In this document: one piece after another, positions 1 through 38,663 of the stretch
Layout of the letters: each line of letters opens with the position of its first letter
How positions within the stretch are numbered: the stretch's first letter is position 1
Position numbers and translations under genes: made by a program
Virus record (IMG/VR): IMGVR_UViG_3300009169_000042
Location: 1-38,663 of that record
DNA length: 38,663 bases
Origin: a virus
Strand: one strand, 5' to 3'
Notes under the pieces: generated by a model
Databases searched by the model: none
The model's input: the letters and a program-made list of their open reading frames with translations, nothing else
Told to the model about the DNA's origin: nothing

Positions 1-47
1 AGTTCCCGGCACTGGAGGAGAAGCCGTAGAAGCCGAACCACTCCTGC
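1..47. repeat. 47-bp direct repeat, first copy (circular closure)
   Basis: Bases 1-47 are identical to 38617-38663. The repeat lies inside one gene whose frame continues across the join. That fits an assembler overlap on a circular or circularly permuted genome, not a functional terminal repeat. Confidence 0.9.
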
Positions 48-5781: not shown

Positions 5782-7061
5782 TAGAAGAATCCTTTCCCGA
5801 CGCTACCACCGATGCTGGAGCCAATGGACGCCCCGAGCGGCCCGCCAAACATCGCGCCACCGACACCGCCAATCAATGAGCCGATGCCGCCGCCGAAAGA
5901 GGACGACTGGGCCTGCTGACCATTGTAGGCGTCCATCGCAGCCCCGTATTGATCCTTGGAGGCTCCGTAGTAGTTGACGCCCTGCTGATTGCTGGCAGGC
6001 ATGAACGACGGCATTGTGGGCATCCCAACCTGTTGGCCGGTCAGCAGCGCGTTCATTTCATTGAGGCTCATGCCCCGCTTCATGGCCTCTTCAGCGATGG
6101 CCTGCTGGCGGAGCTGATTGGCGTAGTTCGCGCCCTGCATTCCCTGATTGAAGTTCTGGCCGCTCGCCGCGAGCTGTTGACGGAACTGCTGCTCCTGCGC
6201 AGAATTGCCAAACTGACCACTCTGAAGCATTTGCTGGAACATCTGCTGCTGAGCTTGGTTCCCGAACTGTCCGCTGGCGAGCATCTGCTGGAACGCTTGC
6301 TGCTGAGCTTGGTTCCCGAACTGGCCCTGATTAATGTCCATGCCCTGCAACCGCTGAGCTTCTTGTCCACCGCTGATGATAGAACCAAGATTCGCTTGGT
6401 CGTAGGCATCGGTCTTGCTACGGTTGAAGTTCGCCATCTCCCGAGCGAAGGCCGAGCTCCCTCTAGTGATGCCCCGGTTTGCGAGCTGGGTTTCTAGCTG
6501 CTGTTGCTTCTGGTTCCACTGAGGATCAAGGCGGGAGGCCTGCTTTCCGTACAGAGCGTTTTCAGCCCTGGACAGGTAGTCGCCAGACCCACCCACTCCG
6601 CGCTGGATGTTGCCAGCGTTGCCGAGTCCAGACTGGATTCCCTGGCCCGCGCCCTGAACTCCGCTCTGGATGCCCTGCCCGCCCGTGACACGCTCATTGG
6701 TCGGAGCCTGTCCATACCCCGGCATCTTGCTCCAGTCGAACGGCTTGCCGTACTCGTCCTTCACACGATTCATGAAGGAGCCAGCCAGCTCAGAGCGCTG
6801 GTTCTGCAGACCCTGCTGCTGGTCAAGCGCCTTCTGGGTGTCCGGAGTAAGGTTCGTGTTCTGAACCCACCGGGTAGTGGTCAGGCCGGTGGCGGGGTCA
6901 ATGTCCTGCTTCGCCTGCCAGCTCTGGGATCCCCACGGCGTATTGATGTCTGGGCGATTGGCCCATGTGTTCCTGGTCGCGGCTTCGTTGGAAGACTGGG
7001 CGGTCTTCTCAGCGGCAGCGGTGTAATCAGGCGGCGGTGGTGGATCTGACTTCTTTCCCAT
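5781..7061 (-). CDS. Gln-rich virion protein with tandem repeats and glycine-zipper C-terminus
   Basis: This 426-aa protein begins MGKKSDPPPPPDYTAAAEKT, a start common in conserved podovirus virion proteins of unknown role. Residues about 235-300 hold an 18-aa tandem repeat of the form QFGNQAQQQxFQQMLxSG, in about three copies. The last 40 residues are a Gly-rich hydrophobic tail (GGGIGSLIGGVGG and GASIGSSIGGSVG) resembling glycine-zipper membrane-inserting segments. With its neighbours this suggests an ejection or membrane-channel protein, which is inference. Its start lies inside the acetyltransferase gene (35-bp overlap). Its stop shares a base with the next start. Confidence 0.65.
   Translation of the reverse strand: MGKKSDPPPPPDYTAAAEKTAQSSNEAATRNTWANRPDINTPWGSQSWQAKQDIDPATGLTTTRWVQNTNLTPDTQKALDQQQGLQNQRSELAGSFMNRVKDEYGKPFDWSKMPGYGQAPTNERVTGGQGIQSGVQGAGQGIQSGLGNAGNIQRGVGGSGDYLSRAENALYGKQASRLDPQWNQKQQQLETQLANRGITRGSSAFAREMANFNRSKTDAYDQANLGSIISGGQEAQRLQGMDINQGQFGNQAQQQAFQQMLASGQFGNQAQQQMFQQMLQSGQFGNSAQEQQFRQQLAASGQNFNQGMQGANYANQLRQQAIAEEAMKRGMSLNEMNALLTGQQVGMPTMPSFMPASNQQGVNYYGASKDQYGAAMDAYNGQQAQSSSFGGGIGSLIGGVGGAMFGGPLGASIGSSIGGSVGKGFF
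6178..6330 (-). repeat. 54-bp in-frame tandem repeat inside the Gln-rich virion gene
   Basis: The segment gagcttggttcccgaact recurs exactly 54 bp apart (6251 and 6305), with a more diverged copy upstream near 6195. It encodes about three copies of the QFGNQAQQQ 18-residue unit. Confidence 0.75.
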
Positions 7062-7464
7062 ATCGGGCCTCCAGCCAGCGGCAATCCTCTCGCCGCATGG
7101 TCATTAGTAACAGCGCTCCATCTGGATGCGCCCCAATCAGCTCATTTTCAACTTTGAACCCAAGTCGCGTGTTAAAGCGAATTGCGTCCGTGTTACCACT
7201 CGGCACGAGGCCAATGACCATATTGCACTTCAAAACTCTGAACGGGTAGTCAAACGCCGCGAACAGCATCGACTTGGTGACCCATCCAGGCTCACCTGCG
7301 ACGTGCATATGAACGCTGGCCCGGTTGAACCCGTCGTAACCTATAACCCCAACGATCTGACCATTTACGATGTTGCCGATGCACTTAATGGCCGGGGTTG
7401 GAATGTAGTCAATCTTCTTGCAGAGCCAAGAAGCCAGTACGTCTTGATTGGCGGTATGGATCAC
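7027..7464 (-). CDS. GNAT-like acetyltransferase
   Basis: This 145-aa protein starts with GTG at 7462-7464, behind a GGGAGG site, and its start overlaps the tail gene's TGA. The region IGYDGFNRASVHMHV, then a helix, then IGLVPSGNTDAIRFNTRLGF fits the GNAT fold, with the N-A-I-R-F-N-T-R-L-G-F end being typical. The acetyl-CoA-binding loop is not canonical. Such proteins are common next to podovirus tail genes, but their substrate is unknown. The placement suggests modification of a virion or host-surface protein. Confidence 0.6.
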   Translation of the reverse strand: MIHTANQDVLASWLCKKIDYIPTPAIKCIGNIVNGQIVGVIGYDGFNRASVHMHVAGEPGWVTKSMLFAAFDYPFRVLKCNMVIGLVPSGNTDAIRFNTRLGFKVENELIGAHPDGALLLMTMRREDCRWLEARYGKEVRSTTAA

Positions 7465-31745: not shown

Positions 31746-32168
31746 ATGGAAAGCAACGTCCAGACGGACAAGAAGTCCAAGAAGGCCAAGAAGTTCGAGG
31801 CCGATGCCGCCACCACGGAAGTCCAGGCGAATGCGGAAACCCCGACCGGCGACAACGCCGCCGAGGGCGAAGGCAAAGCGACGGGCGCACCGCGTCCCCG
31901 CAAGTGGGACTACGGCATCATCCCCGAGGCCAAGATCGTGCCGCAGGCGGAAACCGCCAGCGTCAAGAAGGAAGTCGCGGAAGCGTGGGCGCTGGTCGAC
32001 GACAGCCCGACGGTGGAGGAGTACACGAAGCGTGGCGGTGACCGTCACGGCCTGCGTGTCCTGTCCCGCCGTGGTCTGATCAAGATCATCCACGCCGACG
32101 GCAACGAGTTCCCGAAGGCGTACGTCGCGCCGGTCAAGGAAGAAGCCGCCGAAGAGCCGGCTCAGTAG
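31746..32168 (+). CDS. Hypothetical protein with disordered N-terminus
   Basis: This 140-aa protein starts behind AGGAG. Residues 1-50 are Lys/Glu/Ala-rich and disordered (KKSKKAKKFEADAATTEVQA). Residues 55-130 are compact, with a WDYGIIPEAKIV start and a likely winged-helix-like RGGDRHGLRVLSRRGLIKII segment. No family is recognised. It lies just ahead of the modification cassette but is separated by a strong hairpin, so membership is uncertain. Confidence 0.62.
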   Translation: MESNVQTDKKSKKAKKFEADAATTEVQANAETPTGDNAAEGEGKATGAPRPRKWDYGIIPEAKIVPQAETASVKKEVAEAWALVDDSPTVEEYTKRGGDRHGLRVLSRRGLIKIIHADGNEFPKAYVAPVKEEAAEEPAQ

Positions 32169-32253: not shown

Positions 32254-32877
32254 ATGACCCCCACCGCAGCATTCAATCCACGAGGCACTTCCGGCTCAGG
32301 TAAGACGACAATTGTCCGAGCCATTCTCGATGTTAGCCGAGCTGCCCCGTACCGGCACCAAAGCAGCAAAGTCAGGATGTACAAGGGTCGTATGCTGGAC
32401 TGCGACCTGTTCATTTTGGGCGACTATAGGGGCGTCTGCGGAGGCTGCGATACGATCCAGCCATTCGCCGACATCCTGCCCATGATTACAGAGGTGATGT
32501 CCAGGACCACCCCGACCCTGCTGGTCTACGAGGGCCTGCTGATCAGCCATAGCATCGGCAGCATTGGCGAGCTCGTAAAGCCCTACGGGGACCGGCACGT
32601 CATGGGATTTCTGGACACTCCGCTGGAAGTCTGCTTGGATAGGGTCAAGCACCGCAGGCTGGAGCGCGGACAGCTCGCCCCTCTCAACCCCGAAAACACC
32701 ACGAAGGACCACGCCAGCGTCGCTCGGTGCCATGCCCGAGCCTCCCAGCAGGGATTCAACACGGTGTCCATCAACCACGAAAACGCCATTTCACAATCGC
32801 TAGGGATTCTTCATGGACTTTCCGAAGTTGTCCACGCTTCTGTTTTGGATTCAAGAGCGGGAATCGATACGCCTTAA
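32254..32877 (+). CDS. P-loop kinase of the 5-hydroxymethyl-dU DNA kinase type
   Basis: This 207-aa protein starts at an ATG behind AGAGGA. Walker A is RGTSGSGKTT (10-19). The signature VCGGCDTI (62-68) and the lid-region LDTPLEVCLDRVKHRR (120-135) are features I associate with 5-HMUDK-type phage kinases that phosphorylate 5-hydroxymethyluracil in DNA. A dNMP-kinase role is an alternative. It overlaps the helical-domain gene by 65 bp, so the two are probably made together. Confidence 0.72.
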   Translation: MTPTAAFNPRGTSGSGKTTIVRAILDVSRAAPYRHQSSKVRMYKGRMLDCDLFILGDYRGVCGGCDTIQPFADILPMITEVMSRTTPTLLVYEGLLISHSIGSIGELVKPYGDRHVMGFLDTPLEVCLDRVKHRRLERGQLAPLNPENTTKDHASVARCHARASQQGFNTVSINHENAISQSLGILHGLSEVVHASVLDSRAGIDTP

Positions 32878-33652
32878 GAAGGAAGCCGGGGAGCGCCGCC
32901 CCTGGACTGACGACGTAATACTCCAGAACTTCCGCTTCTGTAACGTCCGCCGTCAAGACGACTACGTTACCTCTTGGCTTCGGTATAACTGGTATCCCCT
33001 GCACGAGGCCGACAACTTTGTCGGAGCCATCACCCTCGCCCGGCTGGTAAACGAACCGGGCACTCTGGCCTTCGTCGGGTTCCCCGAAGTGGAGCGGTGG
33101 GGCGATACTCTGTTGGCCCTCAAGGAGTGGCGTGAGACTGGCAACCGCGTTTTCAATCCAGCTTACATCGTCACCACTTGCGGCGTCAAGATGGACAAGC
33201 TGGACTATGTGGTACGGGTCGCCAAGGATGCTGACATGGCGTGGGCGCGGCGCAGCATCAAGCCTCGTAGCCTCACCGACGCCTTTAAGGTTCTTTCATC
33301 AGTGGATGGCCTGAAGGGTACGGGGTTCCTAGCCGCTCAGGTAATTGCTGACCTGAAGTACACCCCGGTACTCGCCGAGGCGTATGACTGGTTCACATGG
33401 TGCTCTCTTGGGCCTGGGAGTATGCGCGGCATGAACCGCCTCGTAGGTCATCCCAAAGACCACAAGTGGAACGCCGACGTGTTCAGGCGGGTGATCAACC
33501 AGCTCCGTGACGTAGTGTCTGATGAAATCGCCGTAGACCTCTGCGCTCAGGACCTGCAGAACTGCCTGTGCGAGTTTGACAAGTACGTTCGTGCCCAAGA
33601 GGGCGGAAAGCCGAAGCAGAACTACGATGGATATGGAAGACCTACGCGATAA
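32813..33652 (+). CDS. 5-hmdU DNA kinase helical-domain protein (HMUDK_hel family)
   Basis: This 279-aa protein has FWIQERESIRLKKEAG (11-26), PWTDDVIL (30-37) and RFCNVRRQDDYVTSW (41-55), which closely match the helical family found fused or next to 5-hydroxymethyluracil DNA kinases. In hypermodifying phages it forms part of the machinery that activates hmdU in DNA. Here it is separate from the P-loop kinase. It begins inside that gene and has an AGGGA site. No other domain is seen. Confidence 0.78.
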   Translation: MDFPKLSTLLFWIQERESIRLKKEAGERRPWTDDVILQNFRFCNVRRQDDYVTSWLRYNWYPLHEADNFVGAITLARLVNEPGTLAFVGFPEVERWGDTLLALKEWRETGNRVFNPAYIVTTCGVKMDKLDYVVRVAKDADMAWARRSIKPRSLTDAFKVLSSVDGLKGTGFLAAQVIADLKYTPVLAEAYDWFTWCSLGPGSMRGMNRLVGHPKDHKWNADVFRRVINQLRDVVSDEIAVDLCAQDLQNCLCEFDKYVRAQEGGKPKQNYDGYGRPTR

Positions 33653-33863
33653 GCTGACCGTCACGCGGCGGTTCCCCAACGGAGCGGTGACTGCTCTGAT
33701 CGCATACCGTGCGTCAGGCATCATCGAATGGACGATTGTGGTCTTCCCCGACATGGATACGGCTGAGGCCTTCGCCATCGCAGCGGGCATGGACTACGCC
33801 GTACAGCCCGAAGTCCAACTGCAATTGAGGGCTCTACAGGACGCTCTAAACGGGGGTGGGTAG
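33627..33863 (+). CDS. 78-aa hypothetical protein in the modification cassette
   Basis: The start chosen is the ATG at 33627 (MDMEDLRDKLTVTRRFPNGA). A second ATG two codons later is equally possible. It has beta strands, including ALIAYRASGIIEWTIVVFPD, and a helical C-terminus. It starts inside the helical-domain gene (26-bp overlap). No family is recognised, but its place between the kinase pair and the synthase makes it a candidate cassette member. Confidence 0.6.
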   Translation: MDMEDLRDKLTVTRRFPNGAVTALIAYRASGIIEWTIVVFPDMDTAEAFAIAAGMDYAVQPEVQLQLRALQDALNGGG

Positions 33864-33963
33864 CCCCGTACCGGCCTGCCCCGTTGAGCGTCTCTACGGC
33901 CTCAATAGAGCCCTCAAAACGTCTCTTTTACAGCCCACCCTAACCCCACCCCGCAGGAGGTTT

Positions 33964-34944
33964 ATGACTTATTTAATCAACGCCCGCAACGTGAACGATG
34001 CCCTATTCATGGGCCTCCGACACCTGCGGAACCACGGCATTGTGGCGGAGTCACGTAATGGGAAGGTGCGTGTCGCCCCCGGCCCTGTACTCACCGAATA
34101 CGCTCGGCCAATGGAGCGAGTGCTGAGTTGGGGCAAGCGCGACGCCAACCCGTTCTTCCACCTCATGGAGGCCCTGTGGATGCTGGCGGGCCGCAACGAC
34201 GTGGACTTCGTGGCTGAGTTCGCAAAGCAGATGCGCGAGTACAGCGACGATGGGCAGCGACTCAACGGAGCCTACGGGTTCCGGTGGCGTCGGCACTTCG
34301 GGTTCGACCAACTGGAGCACCTCGTTCATATGCTTCGGAAAGAGCCTACGACGCGGCGGGCCGTGCTACAGATCTACGACCCACACAGCGACTCTGAGTT
34401 CAGCAAGGACATACCCTGCAACACCGTCGTGTACTTCGACATCGTCAACGACGAGCTGAACATGACGGTGTGCAACCGGAGCAACGACATCGTATGGGGA
34501 TGCTACGGGGCGAATGCCGTTCACTTCTCCATGCTGCAGGAGTTCATGGCCGCGCACATCGGAGTGGATGTTGGTCGCTACCGCCAGTTCAGCAATAACT
34601 TCCACATCTACGAACCTCACTGGCACCTGATGGAAGAGAACTGGAAGGTGCCGGAGGCGTACGAGTTCAGGGTGACGCCGCTGCTGCGGGATGCCCTGCC
34701 GTACGAGCATCACGTGCGGGATATTGACCTGTTTCTTCGGGACCCCATCAACTTCATACCTCAAACCGAGTTCTTGCGTAATGTCGCCCAGCCGATGGCG
34801 CGGGCCTTCCTGTACCGCAAGATGGGACACGGTAGCGGGATGCACTTCCTCCACGGCGCCGACCCCTCAAACGACTGGATTCAAGCAGGTATTCAATGGC
34901 TAGGAAGGAGGGGCGATGTTGGACCGGATCAGCAAGCTGCGTGA
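33964..34944 (+). CDS. Thymidylate-synthase homologue, probable pyrimidine hydroxymethylase
   Basis: The ATG at 33964, three bases after an AGGAGG, gives 326 aa. TS-fold residues are present: E69, W72, Y104, the nucleophile C152 in IPCNT, R172-S173-D175, N184 and H214/Y216. Differences from thymidylate synthase are CN in place of the usual CH, NRS in place of QRS, and WGCYGANAVHFS in place of LGLPFNIAS. The GANAVH form is shared with nucleotide hydroxymethylases such as MilA. The likely product is 5-hydroxymethyl-dUMP, but TS activity is not excluded. Confidence 0.78.
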   Translation: MTYLINARNVNDALFMGLRHLRNHGIVAESRNGKVRVAPGPVLTEYARPMERVLSWGKRDANPFFHLMEALWMLAGRNDVDFVAEFAKQMREYSDDGQRLNGAYGFRWRRHFGFDQLEHLVHMLRKEPTTRRAVLQIYDPHSDSEFSKDIPCNTVVYFDIVNDELNMTVCNRSNDIVWGCYGANAVHFSMLQEFMAAHIGVDVGRYRQFSNNFHIYEPHWHLMEENWKVPEAYEFRVTPLLRDALPYEHHVRDIDLFLRDPINFIPQTEFLRNVAQPMARAFLYRKMGHGSGMHFLHGADPSNDWIQAGIQWLGRRGDVGPDQQAA

Positions 34945-35416
34945 CGGCGGGGCCGTAGTCCGCTACCACACGCTCAGAACCAACCGGAAGCAAAGCGTCG
35001 CAGAGCACAGCCACGGCGTCGCCATGCTGGTGCTTCACGTCTACCCCGAGGCCGAGGTTGGAGTGCTGAAGGCGGCGCTCTACCACGACCTGTCCGAGGT
35101 GGTAACGGGGGACATACCGGCAACGTCCAAGTGGCTGAGTCCTGTACTCGCTCACGAGGAGAACCTGCTGGCCGACGTCTTCCGTGACAAGTACGGCCTC
35201 CGCCTTGACCTCACCGCCTTTGAGAAGCACCTACTGAAGTGGTGTGACATGATGGAGCTAGTGCTCTGGACCATGGAGGAATACGCGATGGGAAACCAGT
35301 TCGCAGGTGAAGTCTGCCAGCGCGGGCTGACGTTTCTAGGGCAGAAAGACCCTCCCACTCGGGAAGCCAAGGAGCTGCTGGCCGAGGTCATCCACGCATT
35401 CAAGGTGATGCAATGA
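34916..35416 (+). CDS. HD-domain 5'-deoxynucleotidase (YfbR-like)
   Basis: This 166-aa protein starts at an ATG behind GGAGG, within the synthase gene. SVAEHSHGVA (E30, H31, H33), AALYHDLSEVVTGDIP (H57, D58, E61, D66) and a late CDMMEL Asp form the metal site of YfbR-like deoxynucleoside 5'-monophosphatases. Coupled to the synthase, it could remove dTMP so that hydroxymethyl-dUMP wins, as dTMPases do in hmU phages. This is inference. Confidence 0.8.
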   Translation: MLDRISKLRDGGAVVRYHTLRTNRKQSVAEHSHGVAMLVLHVYPEAEVGVLKAALYHDLSEVVTGDIPATSKWLSPVLAHEENLLADVFRDKYGLRLDLTAFEKHLLKWCDMMELVLWTMEEYAMGNQFAGEVCQRGLTFLGQKDPPTREAKELLAEVIHAFKVMQ

Positions 35417-35841
35417 GCGCAAACGACAAGCAGATAGGTGGGGATCACTACAAGAAGGGCGGCGAGGAGCATTGGGACCGCCAGTGGAGGCTCTACGGCC
35501 GAGGCTACTTCATCGGCTGTATCACGAAGTACGTGGAGCGATACCCCGAGAAGAACGGCGTCCAGGATCTGCAGAAGGCCATCCACTTCATCGAGAAGTT
35601 GATTGAACTTGAGCAGAACTCGGTCCAATCGGCAGTTCAGCCGGAATCACCGGTCAGCCCTGTTCACCCCGAAGCCTATAAGGATTCGCTCAGCGGAGGG
35701 TGGTTAGTCGAGGGCTTCTACGGGGACATGACTCAGAACTACAAGTGCCCGGTCTGCCGTCAGGAGGTACGAGCAACTTCATTTGGACACGCTCTGGAGC
35801 AACATGGAGCTTGCTCCGGAAGCAAATTGAGTGTACCCTAG
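35413..35841 (+). CDS. DUF3310 protein with C-terminal zinc-finger-like end
   Basis: This 142-aa protein overlaps the previous stop by 4 bp. Residues 1-70 are the DUF3310 pattern: DKQIGGDHYKK, the stretch HWDRQWRLYGRGYFIGCITKY and QDLQKAIHFIEKLIELE. The C-terminus adds CPVCRQEVRATSFGHALEQHGAC with a C-C-H-H spacing. DUF3310 proteins are often near nucleotide-metabolism genes, and their role is unsettled. Confidence 0.75.
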   Translation: MSANDKQIGGDHYKKGGEEHWDRQWRLYGRGYFIGCITKYVERYPEKNGVQDLQKAIHFIEKLIELEQNSVQSAVQPESPVSPVHPEAYKDSLSGGWLVEGFYGDMTQNYKCPVCRQEVRATSFGHALEQHGACSGSKLSVP

Positions 35842-38536: not shown

Positions 38537-38663
38537 TTAGAACGGATAACTGCGAAGCTCGAAGGTGAAGGCTTCACCGACGCCCTGCGAGAATCCGCAG
38601 TCGTCGATAGTCTGCCAGTTCCCGGCACTGGAGGAGAAGCCGTAGAAGCCGAACCACTCCTGC
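38537..38663 (-). CDS. C-terminal end of the 210-aa tail-associated protein begun at 553
   Basis: This is the same gene as the one entering at position 1. Bases 38617-38663 duplicate 1-47, and the reading frame is identical on both sides. After the shared residues ending SSSAGN it adds about 26 residues ending ELRSYPF and stops with TAA. The next gene on this strand starts 21 nt downstream. Confidence 0.8.
   Translation of the reverse strand, partial: QEWFGFYGFSSSAGNWQTIDDCGFSQGVGEAFTFELRSYPF
38617..38663. repeat. 47-bp direct repeat, second copy (circular closure)
   Basis: Exact second copy of 1-47. Removing one copy gives a closed unit of about 38,616 bp with an uninterrupted gene over the join. 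Confidence 0.9.

Follow-up and report, generated by a model that had tools for sequence, protein, structure and literature searches.

The virus record IMGVR_UViG_3300009169_000042, a stretch of 38,663 bases that was analysed at its full length (hereafter the window), carries a putative thymine hypermodification cassette. Five genes lie in a row on the plus strand at 32254-35416, as a preliminary description of this DNA had stated. They encode a P-loop homolog of 5-hydroxymethyldeoxyuridine (5-hmdU) DNA kinases (32254..32877, 207 amino acids), the all-helical partner protein HMUDK_hel, also annotated as aGPT-Pplase1 (32813..33652, 279 amino acids), a 78-amino-acid accessory protein (33627..33863), a ThyA-superfamily enzyme of the deoxyuridine monophosphate (dUMP) hydroxymethylase type (33964..34944, 326 amino acids) and a YfbR-like HD-domain 5'-deoxynucleotidase (34916..35416, 166 amino acids). 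The wider order on this strand is SNF2 helicase, p140 (31746..32168, directly upstream of the kinase), kinase, HMUDK_hel, 78-amino-acid protein, synthase, HD protein, DUF3310 protein and ligase. The kinase and HMUDK_hel genes overlap by 65 base pairs (bp). Overlaps had been described at all junctions, which does not hold between the 78-amino-acid gene and the synthase; here the most likely start is an ATG at 33964, preceded by AGGAGG (33955-33960), so that 100 bp separate the two genes, and the longer alternative is a GTG at 33856. Nor does the cassette end at 35416, given that the DUF3310 gene (35413..35841, plus strand; PF11753, E=3e-7) overlaps the HD gene, occurs in 77 of the loci that were compared and is kept in most relatives. 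The order kinase, HMUDK_hel, synthase and HD protein is repeated in dozens of viral contigs as well as in M6, PaMx11, Ab18, Bordetella phage CN1 and Pam3, and thus the arrangement is not due to chance.

The kinase homolog contains the Walker A motif GTSGSGKT (32284-32307) and the GGCDTI motif (32440-32457), the latter already noted in the preliminary description. It is homologous over nearly its full length to PaMx11 gp49 (31% identity, E=5e-23) and M6 gp054 (29%, E=4e-14) by BLASTP, and it matches phrog_800 (E=3e-17). A total of 91 named phage records match it, mainly M6- and PaMx11-like phages. Residues G11, G14, G16, K17, G56, Y58, G64, D66, E93 and R134 are invariant in 28 homologs; the lysine and glycines of Walker A are among them, as are Asp66 (in GGCD) and Glu93 (in YEG). 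A single-sequence structure model of the kinase was unusable (predicted local distance difference test, pLDDT, 38.6). The label 'terminase small subunit', which several phage records and PHROGs (PHROG 800) attach to the hmdU DNA kinase, is apparently wrong, and touches M6 gp054, PaMx11 gp49 and the window gene at 32254-32877. Two tandem HMUDK-type kinase genes beside one HMUDK_hel gene were observed in loci L191 (record G090) and L167 (record G091), where they could divide mono- and pyrophosphorylation between them.

The assignment of the helical protein to HMUDK_hel is borne out by PF18723 (E=4e-34, 119 bits), far above the cut-off of 25, with residues 7-262 aligned to positions 5-275 of the 281 in the profile. 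The preliminary description had allowed that profile searches might place this protein and the kinase outside the HMUDK families; such searches kept the helical protein inside them and returned the kinase as homologous to, though divergent from, the M6 and PaMx11 enzymes. Across 47 HMUDK_hel homologs, 25 columns are invariant, most of QNCLCEFDK among them. The AlphaFold2 model of the protein (pLDDT 95.4) gave no significant fold match in the PDB, and the weak matches, which include OGG1-type DNA glycosylases (TM score ~0.35), are only suggestive.

The synthase matches PF00303 (E=3e-24) and phrog_5131 (E=3e-109), shares 44% identity with M6 gp058, and has a CMP 5-hydroxymethylase as its nearest solved structure (PDB, E=2e-24). 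In thymidylate synthase a cysteine is catalytic and an asparagine selects uracil; Cys152 and Asn184 of the window enzyme align with this PCH cysteine and PFN asparagine, respectively. Because Asn184 occupies the uracil-selecting position, a uracil-type substrate is expected, to which the enzyme is predicted to add a hydroxymethyl group. The HD protein matches PF12917 (E=7e-13), is 34% identical to M6 gp059 and aligns with the YfbR structures 2paq and 2par, HD motif included. Pfam and PHROG yielded no convincing family for the 78-amino-acid protein, which is kept between HMUDK_hel and the synthase in 22 loci of kinase and glycosyltransferase types alike. The p140 protein has a Lys/Glu/Ala-rich N-terminus and a conserved C-terminal motif, with no Pfam family and no convincing PHROG family, and is conserved in the window, L002-L005, L037, L119-L125, L127 and L129. 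Its C-terminal 41 amino acids weakly match family c1 (hhalign 73%), which holds the place of p140 in glycosyltransferase-type loci. As a hidden enzyme p140 was rejected, being small and of low complexity, with a motif resembling that of c1, which occurs with glycosyltransferases too.

The fourth step of the pathway, in which the transferase ADDT would swap the phosphate for an amino acid or amine, appears to be absent in the window phage. ADDT was not found in the window record by a PF18724 search, by permissive searches of all circular open reading frames (ORFs), by hhalign of 41 window genes, or by A3, a home-made ADDT profile of 14 members that recovers divergent ADDTs missed by Pfam. This profile was built because the Pfam model alone is too insensitive as a test of absence, having overlooked the ADDTs of L066 and L073. 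As a positive control, ADDT was present in all 11 named phages with both kinase and HMUDK_hel (M6, PaMx11, CN1, RHph_TM26, Pam3, nACB2, Sonora, PhiW-14, ViI, Simon and Epa5). Among the window genes scanned against Pfam and PHROG there was no match to radical S-adenosylmethionine (SAM), pyridoxal phosphate (PLP) or flavin adenine dinucleotide (FAD) enzymes, and profile-profile comparison linked none of the 41 genes to the ADDT, radical SAM or glycosyltransferase families. Furthermore, PF20691 (TAGT) and home-made TAGT and GT-B profiles found no glycosyltransferase in the window.

The sequence covered by these searches is probably complete, a circular genome of 38,616 bp. Positions 1..47 and 38617..38663 form an exact 47-bp terminal repeat (no strand assigned), and joining the ends creates a 210-amino-acid ORF across the junction on the minus strand, from 553 to 38537; on these two grounds the window was treated as probably complete. 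The claim that no last-step enzyme is recognisable was thus upheld by Pfam, A3 and profile-profile comparison, and so was the claim that the pathway reaches as far as the activated base, given an HMUDK_hel above its cut-off and a kinase homologous to those of M6 and PaMx11. The cassette appears to share the first half of the thymidine hypermodification pathway and, because the defining transferase ADDT is absent, is filed as a variant and not as a full member. Two candidates were rejected in this context. A GNAT-like acyltransferase gene (7027-7464, minus strand, phrog_4470) lies amid tail and lysis genes, at a great distance from the cassette; it was discarded as a PaMx11-type acetyltransferase given its place among these genes, the lack of a Pfam match, and the absence of any ADDT or FAD enzyme that could supply it. 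A relationship between HMUDK_hel and ADDT detectable in sequence was also dismissed, as the two share a terminal Q-D/E-...-L-C motif and yet reach only 3.5% probability in hhalign.

The ADDT-less arrangement is not confined to the window. On the kinase tree the window kinase groups with L002-L005 in a supported clade (98/95), and a second scan seeded with the window and L002-L005 clade kinases gave 76 loci, a few of which cover contigs of the earlier set over a greater length. All of L119-L125, L127 and L129, which have p140 near the kinase, are without ADDT in the stretch seen, and p140 is a marker of the ADDT-less kinase clade. The p140-bearing records G059 (126-bp terminal repeat) and G060 (127 bp) contain kinase and HMUDK_hel and lack ADDT over the full record. 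Between the helicase and the HD gene, close relatives have no further conserved gene besides p140 and that of the 78-amino-acid protein. The ratio of nonsynonymous to synonymous substitution rates (dN/dS), with the window compared to relatives 59-89% identical, is 0.14-0.24 for the kinase, 0.16-0.29 for HMUDK_hel, 0.11 for the synthase and 0.15 for the HD protein. This range of 0.11-0.29 shows that the four cassette proteins are under purifying selection and are maintained. A side observation concerns L158 (record G087), where one 34-kb contig has two HMUDK_hel genes on opposite strands, with a single kinase and no ADDT.

The partners of HMUDK_hel were compared in 69 non-redundant loci. A kinase lies near it in 24 of these, nine of them with ADDT, and a TAGT-type glycosyltransferase (PF20691 or home-made profiles) in 29. 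A GT-B-like protein, which is a weaker assignment (c15 by Pfam at E=0.007-0.015, c10 by similarity to c15), is present in eight, and both glycosyltransferase kinds in one, so that 38/69 loci have a glycosyltransferase or a putative one. The remainder contain family c9 (five loci) or neither partner (two loci). Kinase and glycosyltransferase are never found together in the 69 loci (Fisher p=1e-12, uncorrected for kinship), nor does any of the 76 kinase-seeded loci contain a glycosyltransferase, while HMUDK_hel is near the kinase in 68 of them. On the HMUDK_hel tree well-supported branches force a minimum of five to six changes of partner, although the bootstrap is not fully settled. For example, the GT-B-like loci L076 and L038 are neighbours of L027 (kinase and ADDT) on the tree, and the TAGT locus L053 is a neighbour of L064 (kinase). 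The neighbourhoods of glycosyltransferase loci (L038, L076, L053, L079, L055), set against those of kinase loci (L027, L064, L080, L020), display this either-or pairing and the switches of partner. The operon from HMUDK_hel to the HD gene is constant, whereas the slot upstream of HMUDK_hel is exchanged. Thus, HMUDK_hel looks like an interchangeable DNA-side partner for whichever catalytic enzyme is present, an adaptor role being the simplest explanation of exchange around a constant protein. A literature search, with the primary pathway papers outside its reach, found no prior description of the ADDT-less kinase clade or of the kinase-or-glycosyltransferase switch.

Further observations were made on these loci. 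Family c9 (~310-380 amino acids), without a Pfam or PHROG match, occupies the kinase/glycosyltransferase slot in L030, L052, L061, L070 and L071. Radical SAM/SPASM proteins adjoin HMUDK_hel in L031, L045, L046, L053, L055, L071 and L079, all of glycosyltransferase or c9 type, hinting at further tailoring. The cultured Brevibacterium phage LuckyBarnes (NC_047851, L288, 5994-10009) encodes a ThyA-type enzyme besides HMUDK_hel (E=5e-68) and two TAGTs, its record holds no kinase and no ADDT, and its DNA is predicted to carry glycosyl-5-hydroxymethyluracil (glycosyl-hmU). HMUDK_hel may not be obligatory for glycosylation, because MW202897 encodes a glucosyltransferase and a hydroxymethylase and has no annotated gene of HMUDK_hel size between helicase and HD gene (HMUDK_hel itself was not searched for there). 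A 2026 study found TAGT without an alpha- or beta-glucosyltransferase in 288 of 753 phage genomes (PMC13216743). TAGT-type HMUDK_hel loci (e.g., L009, L026/L029, L041) may supply the hmU substrate for many such 'solitary' TAGTs, for which that study had no explanation.

Among known systems, M6 has the kinase (gp054), HMUDK_hel (gp055), hydroxymethylase (gp058) and HD protein (gp059) in the same order as the window and likewise near DNA polymerase I. However, it also has ADDT (gp051), a PLP enzyme (gp052), a radical SAM protein (gp053) and Nmad5 (gp056), none of which the window has, and its last-step enzymes (ADDT, PLP and radical SAM) are encoded immediately upstream of the kinase; the cluster of M6 (and SN1) carries thymidine hypermodification through to 5-(2-aminoethyl)-deoxyuridine. 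PaMx11 and Ab18, which have among the closest named kinases and HMUDK_hel proteins to those of the window, share the contiguous kinase, HMUDK_hel, synthase and HD genes and the kinase motif CGGCDTI. They differ directly upstream of the kinase, where they encode ADDT, an FAD oxidoreductase and an acetyltransferase in the place of p140 and the SNF2-type helicase of the window. LuckyBarnes resembles the window in having HMUDK_hel near a ThyA-type enzyme and DNA polymerase, but has its two TAGT glycosyltransferases instead of a kinase. PhiW-14 also has kinase and HMUDK_hel; unlike the window phage, the wild type has ADDT and makes alpha-putrescinylthymine, HmPPUra being the intermediate of a mutant (am37). 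During PhiW-14 infection dTTP disappears and HmdUTP appears, and when the pathway is blocked by mutation before putrescine addition the phage DNA accumulates pyrophosphorylated hmU (PMC5977210). The HmPPUra DNA of am37 shows that pyrophosphorylated hmU is chemically possible in phage DNA (PMC5977210).

The HTVC023P-type pelagiphages are, like the window phage, small podoviruses with a thymidylate synthase and aGPT-PPlase1 (HMUDK_hel) near PolA, and some also carry a 5'-deoxynucleotidase; in the parts of the report available no kinase is mentioned, and some have a beta-glucosyl-HMC-alpha-glucosyltransferase in the region (PMC9599517). On that account, the members with this enzyme resemble the glycosyltransferase type, and the combination of thymidylate synthase, aGPT-PPlase1 and nucleotidase in small podoviruses is not new (PMC9599517).

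The mechanism proposed from these homologies starts with the ThyA-type enzyme, which would convert dUMP to 5-hydroxymethyl-dUMP. The HD nucleotidase would then drain competing thymidine nucleotides, so that the polymerase builds hmU into DNA. After replication, as homology and gene pairing suggest, the kinase would phosphorylate some of the hmU to 5-phospho- or 5-pyrophospho-methyl-deoxyuridine, with HMUDK_hel handling the DNA side. It has been reported that 5-HMUDK phosphorylates hmU, but not 5-hydroxymethylcytosine, in DNA in vitro (PMC6457204). The mature base would be phosphorylated or pyrophosphorylated hmU mixed with hmU, which presumably, by its bulk and negative charge, protects the DNA from host restriction. 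That these three steps operate is very probable judging from the sequences. That the phosphate is the end product is an even call, although a phosphorylated final base is the simplest outcome for a genome with no transferase, and the proposal as a whole (hmU made, phosphorylated in DNA, and left as phospho- or pyrophospho-hmU) is likewise finely balanced. The conjunction of a phospho- or pyrophospho-hmU final base with HMUDK_hel as an exchangeable adaptor for a kinase or a glycosyltransferase branch is put forward more tentatively, at somewhat below even; in this combined form, HMUDK_hel would be no kinase domain but would present hmU to a kinase (the branch of phosphate and amino acids) or to a glycosyltransferase (the sugar branch), and the chemistry of the phage genome would depend on which enzyme fills a single exchangeable slot.

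Several points weigh against a phosphorylated final base or call for caution. The kinase scores 20 bits on PF18748 (HMUDK_HMUD1; E=5e-4), under the cut-off of 27, and M6 gp054 scores 65; this cut-off is a detection threshold and no functional criterion. Because of this score, the kinase is regarded as a divergent homolog of M6 gp054 and PaMx11 gp49, and not as a model-confirmed family member. Nor is the PF18723 match by itself proof of a kinase pathway, because HMUDK_hel accompanies glycosyltransferases in most relatives. Transcription by Escherichia coli RNA polymerase falls to 37% of that on normal DNA when the template contains phosphorylated hmU (PMC6457204). Full phosphorylation is thus predicted to be costly, given this poor template and the fact that Pfam and PHROG scans recognised no phage RNA polymerase among the window genes; the cost would not arise if modification were partial or late. 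In addition, an ADDT-less kinase locus need not be minimal. The locus L161 (8476-9992) of G089, a 61-kb record with a terminal repeat, has two extra genes, of 261 and 240 amino acids, between helicase and kinase, which are candidates for new last-step enzymes.

The family-less genes of the window, p140 and the 78-amino-acid protein among them, could likewise encode a last-step enzyme, or the host could supply the step. A pathway that goes past the phosphate, with such an orphan ORF product or a host enzyme displacing it to give a hypermodified thymine, be it a known or a new one, is the strongest alternative, and is a real possibility while less probable than an end at the phosphate. A further transferase is present in all four named phages considered here that have a known hypermodified thymine, namely M6, PaMx11, PhiW-14 and ViI. 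Moreover, ADDT diverges fast, as shown by the members that Pfam missed and A3 found, and several window ORFs have no family. However, no likeness to ADDT, radical SAM or glycosyltransferase proteins emerged from profile-profile comparison, Pfam found no PLP or FAD enzyme in the window, and the only extra genes that close relatives keep between helicase and HD gene are those of p140 and the 78-amino-acid protein. Both of these proteins are small, and homologs of the latter occur with glycosyltransferases too.

In another explanation the cassette would serve nucleotide metabolism alone, the synthase being an ordinary thymidylate synthase and the kinase a dTMP kinase-like enzyme that acts on a free nucleotide, leaving plain thymine in the DNA. 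The sub-threshold PF18748 score, a weak match of the kinase to phrog_761 'thymidylate kinase' and the retention of ThyA catalytic residues in the synthase are consistent with this, but two features of the synthase argue the other way: its 44% identity to M6 gp058, and a hydroxymethylase, not a thymidylate synthase, as the best match in the PDB. In addition, we know of no role of HMUDK_hel in nucleotide metabolism, and its presence near the kinase in 68 of the 76 kinase-seeded loci makes this explanation improbable. It is more improbable still that the cassette is a decayed remnant, no longer functional, of an ADDT-bearing ancestor that lost its last gene. Related kinase lineages do have ADDT, and lineages with and without it are intermingled on the kinase tree; however, the dN/dS values largely refute decay, all frames are open, the invariant kinase residues are all kept, and the ADDT-less arrangement persists across a diverse clade. 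The least probable explanation is that hmU receives a sugar from a glycosyltransferase encoded at another place in the genome, as is predicted for relatives of the glycosyltransferase type. Such an enzyme, certain or putative, is present in 38 HMUDK_hel loci, but in the window neither PF20691 nor the home-made profiles for TAGT and GT-B found anything, and kinase and glycosyltransferase never occur together in either set of loci.

If the phosphate is final, as proposed here, phospho- or pyrophospho-hmU would be a new kind of mature DNA base, so far seen only as an intermediate. With the synthase, nucleotidase, kinase and HMUDK_hel, thymine would then be replaced in very few steps by a charged base that blocks restriction, and ADDT would be an optional decoration and not the essential end of the pathway. 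Partner switching would also give HMUDK_hel a concrete role, where earlier guesses were aGPT-Pplase1 and then a helical domain of the kinase, and for the sugar branch a test is within reach because LuckyBarnes is in culture.

A search of genome contigs with the kinase, made for host inference, returned two distant metagenome bins only. Elsewhere in the window, Pfam and PHROG identified genes for DNA polymerase I, a PD-(D/E)XK nuclease, the SNF2-type helicase, an ATP-dependent ligase and a DnaB-like helicase, together with podovirus-type genes for portal, capsid, terminase and internal virion proteins.

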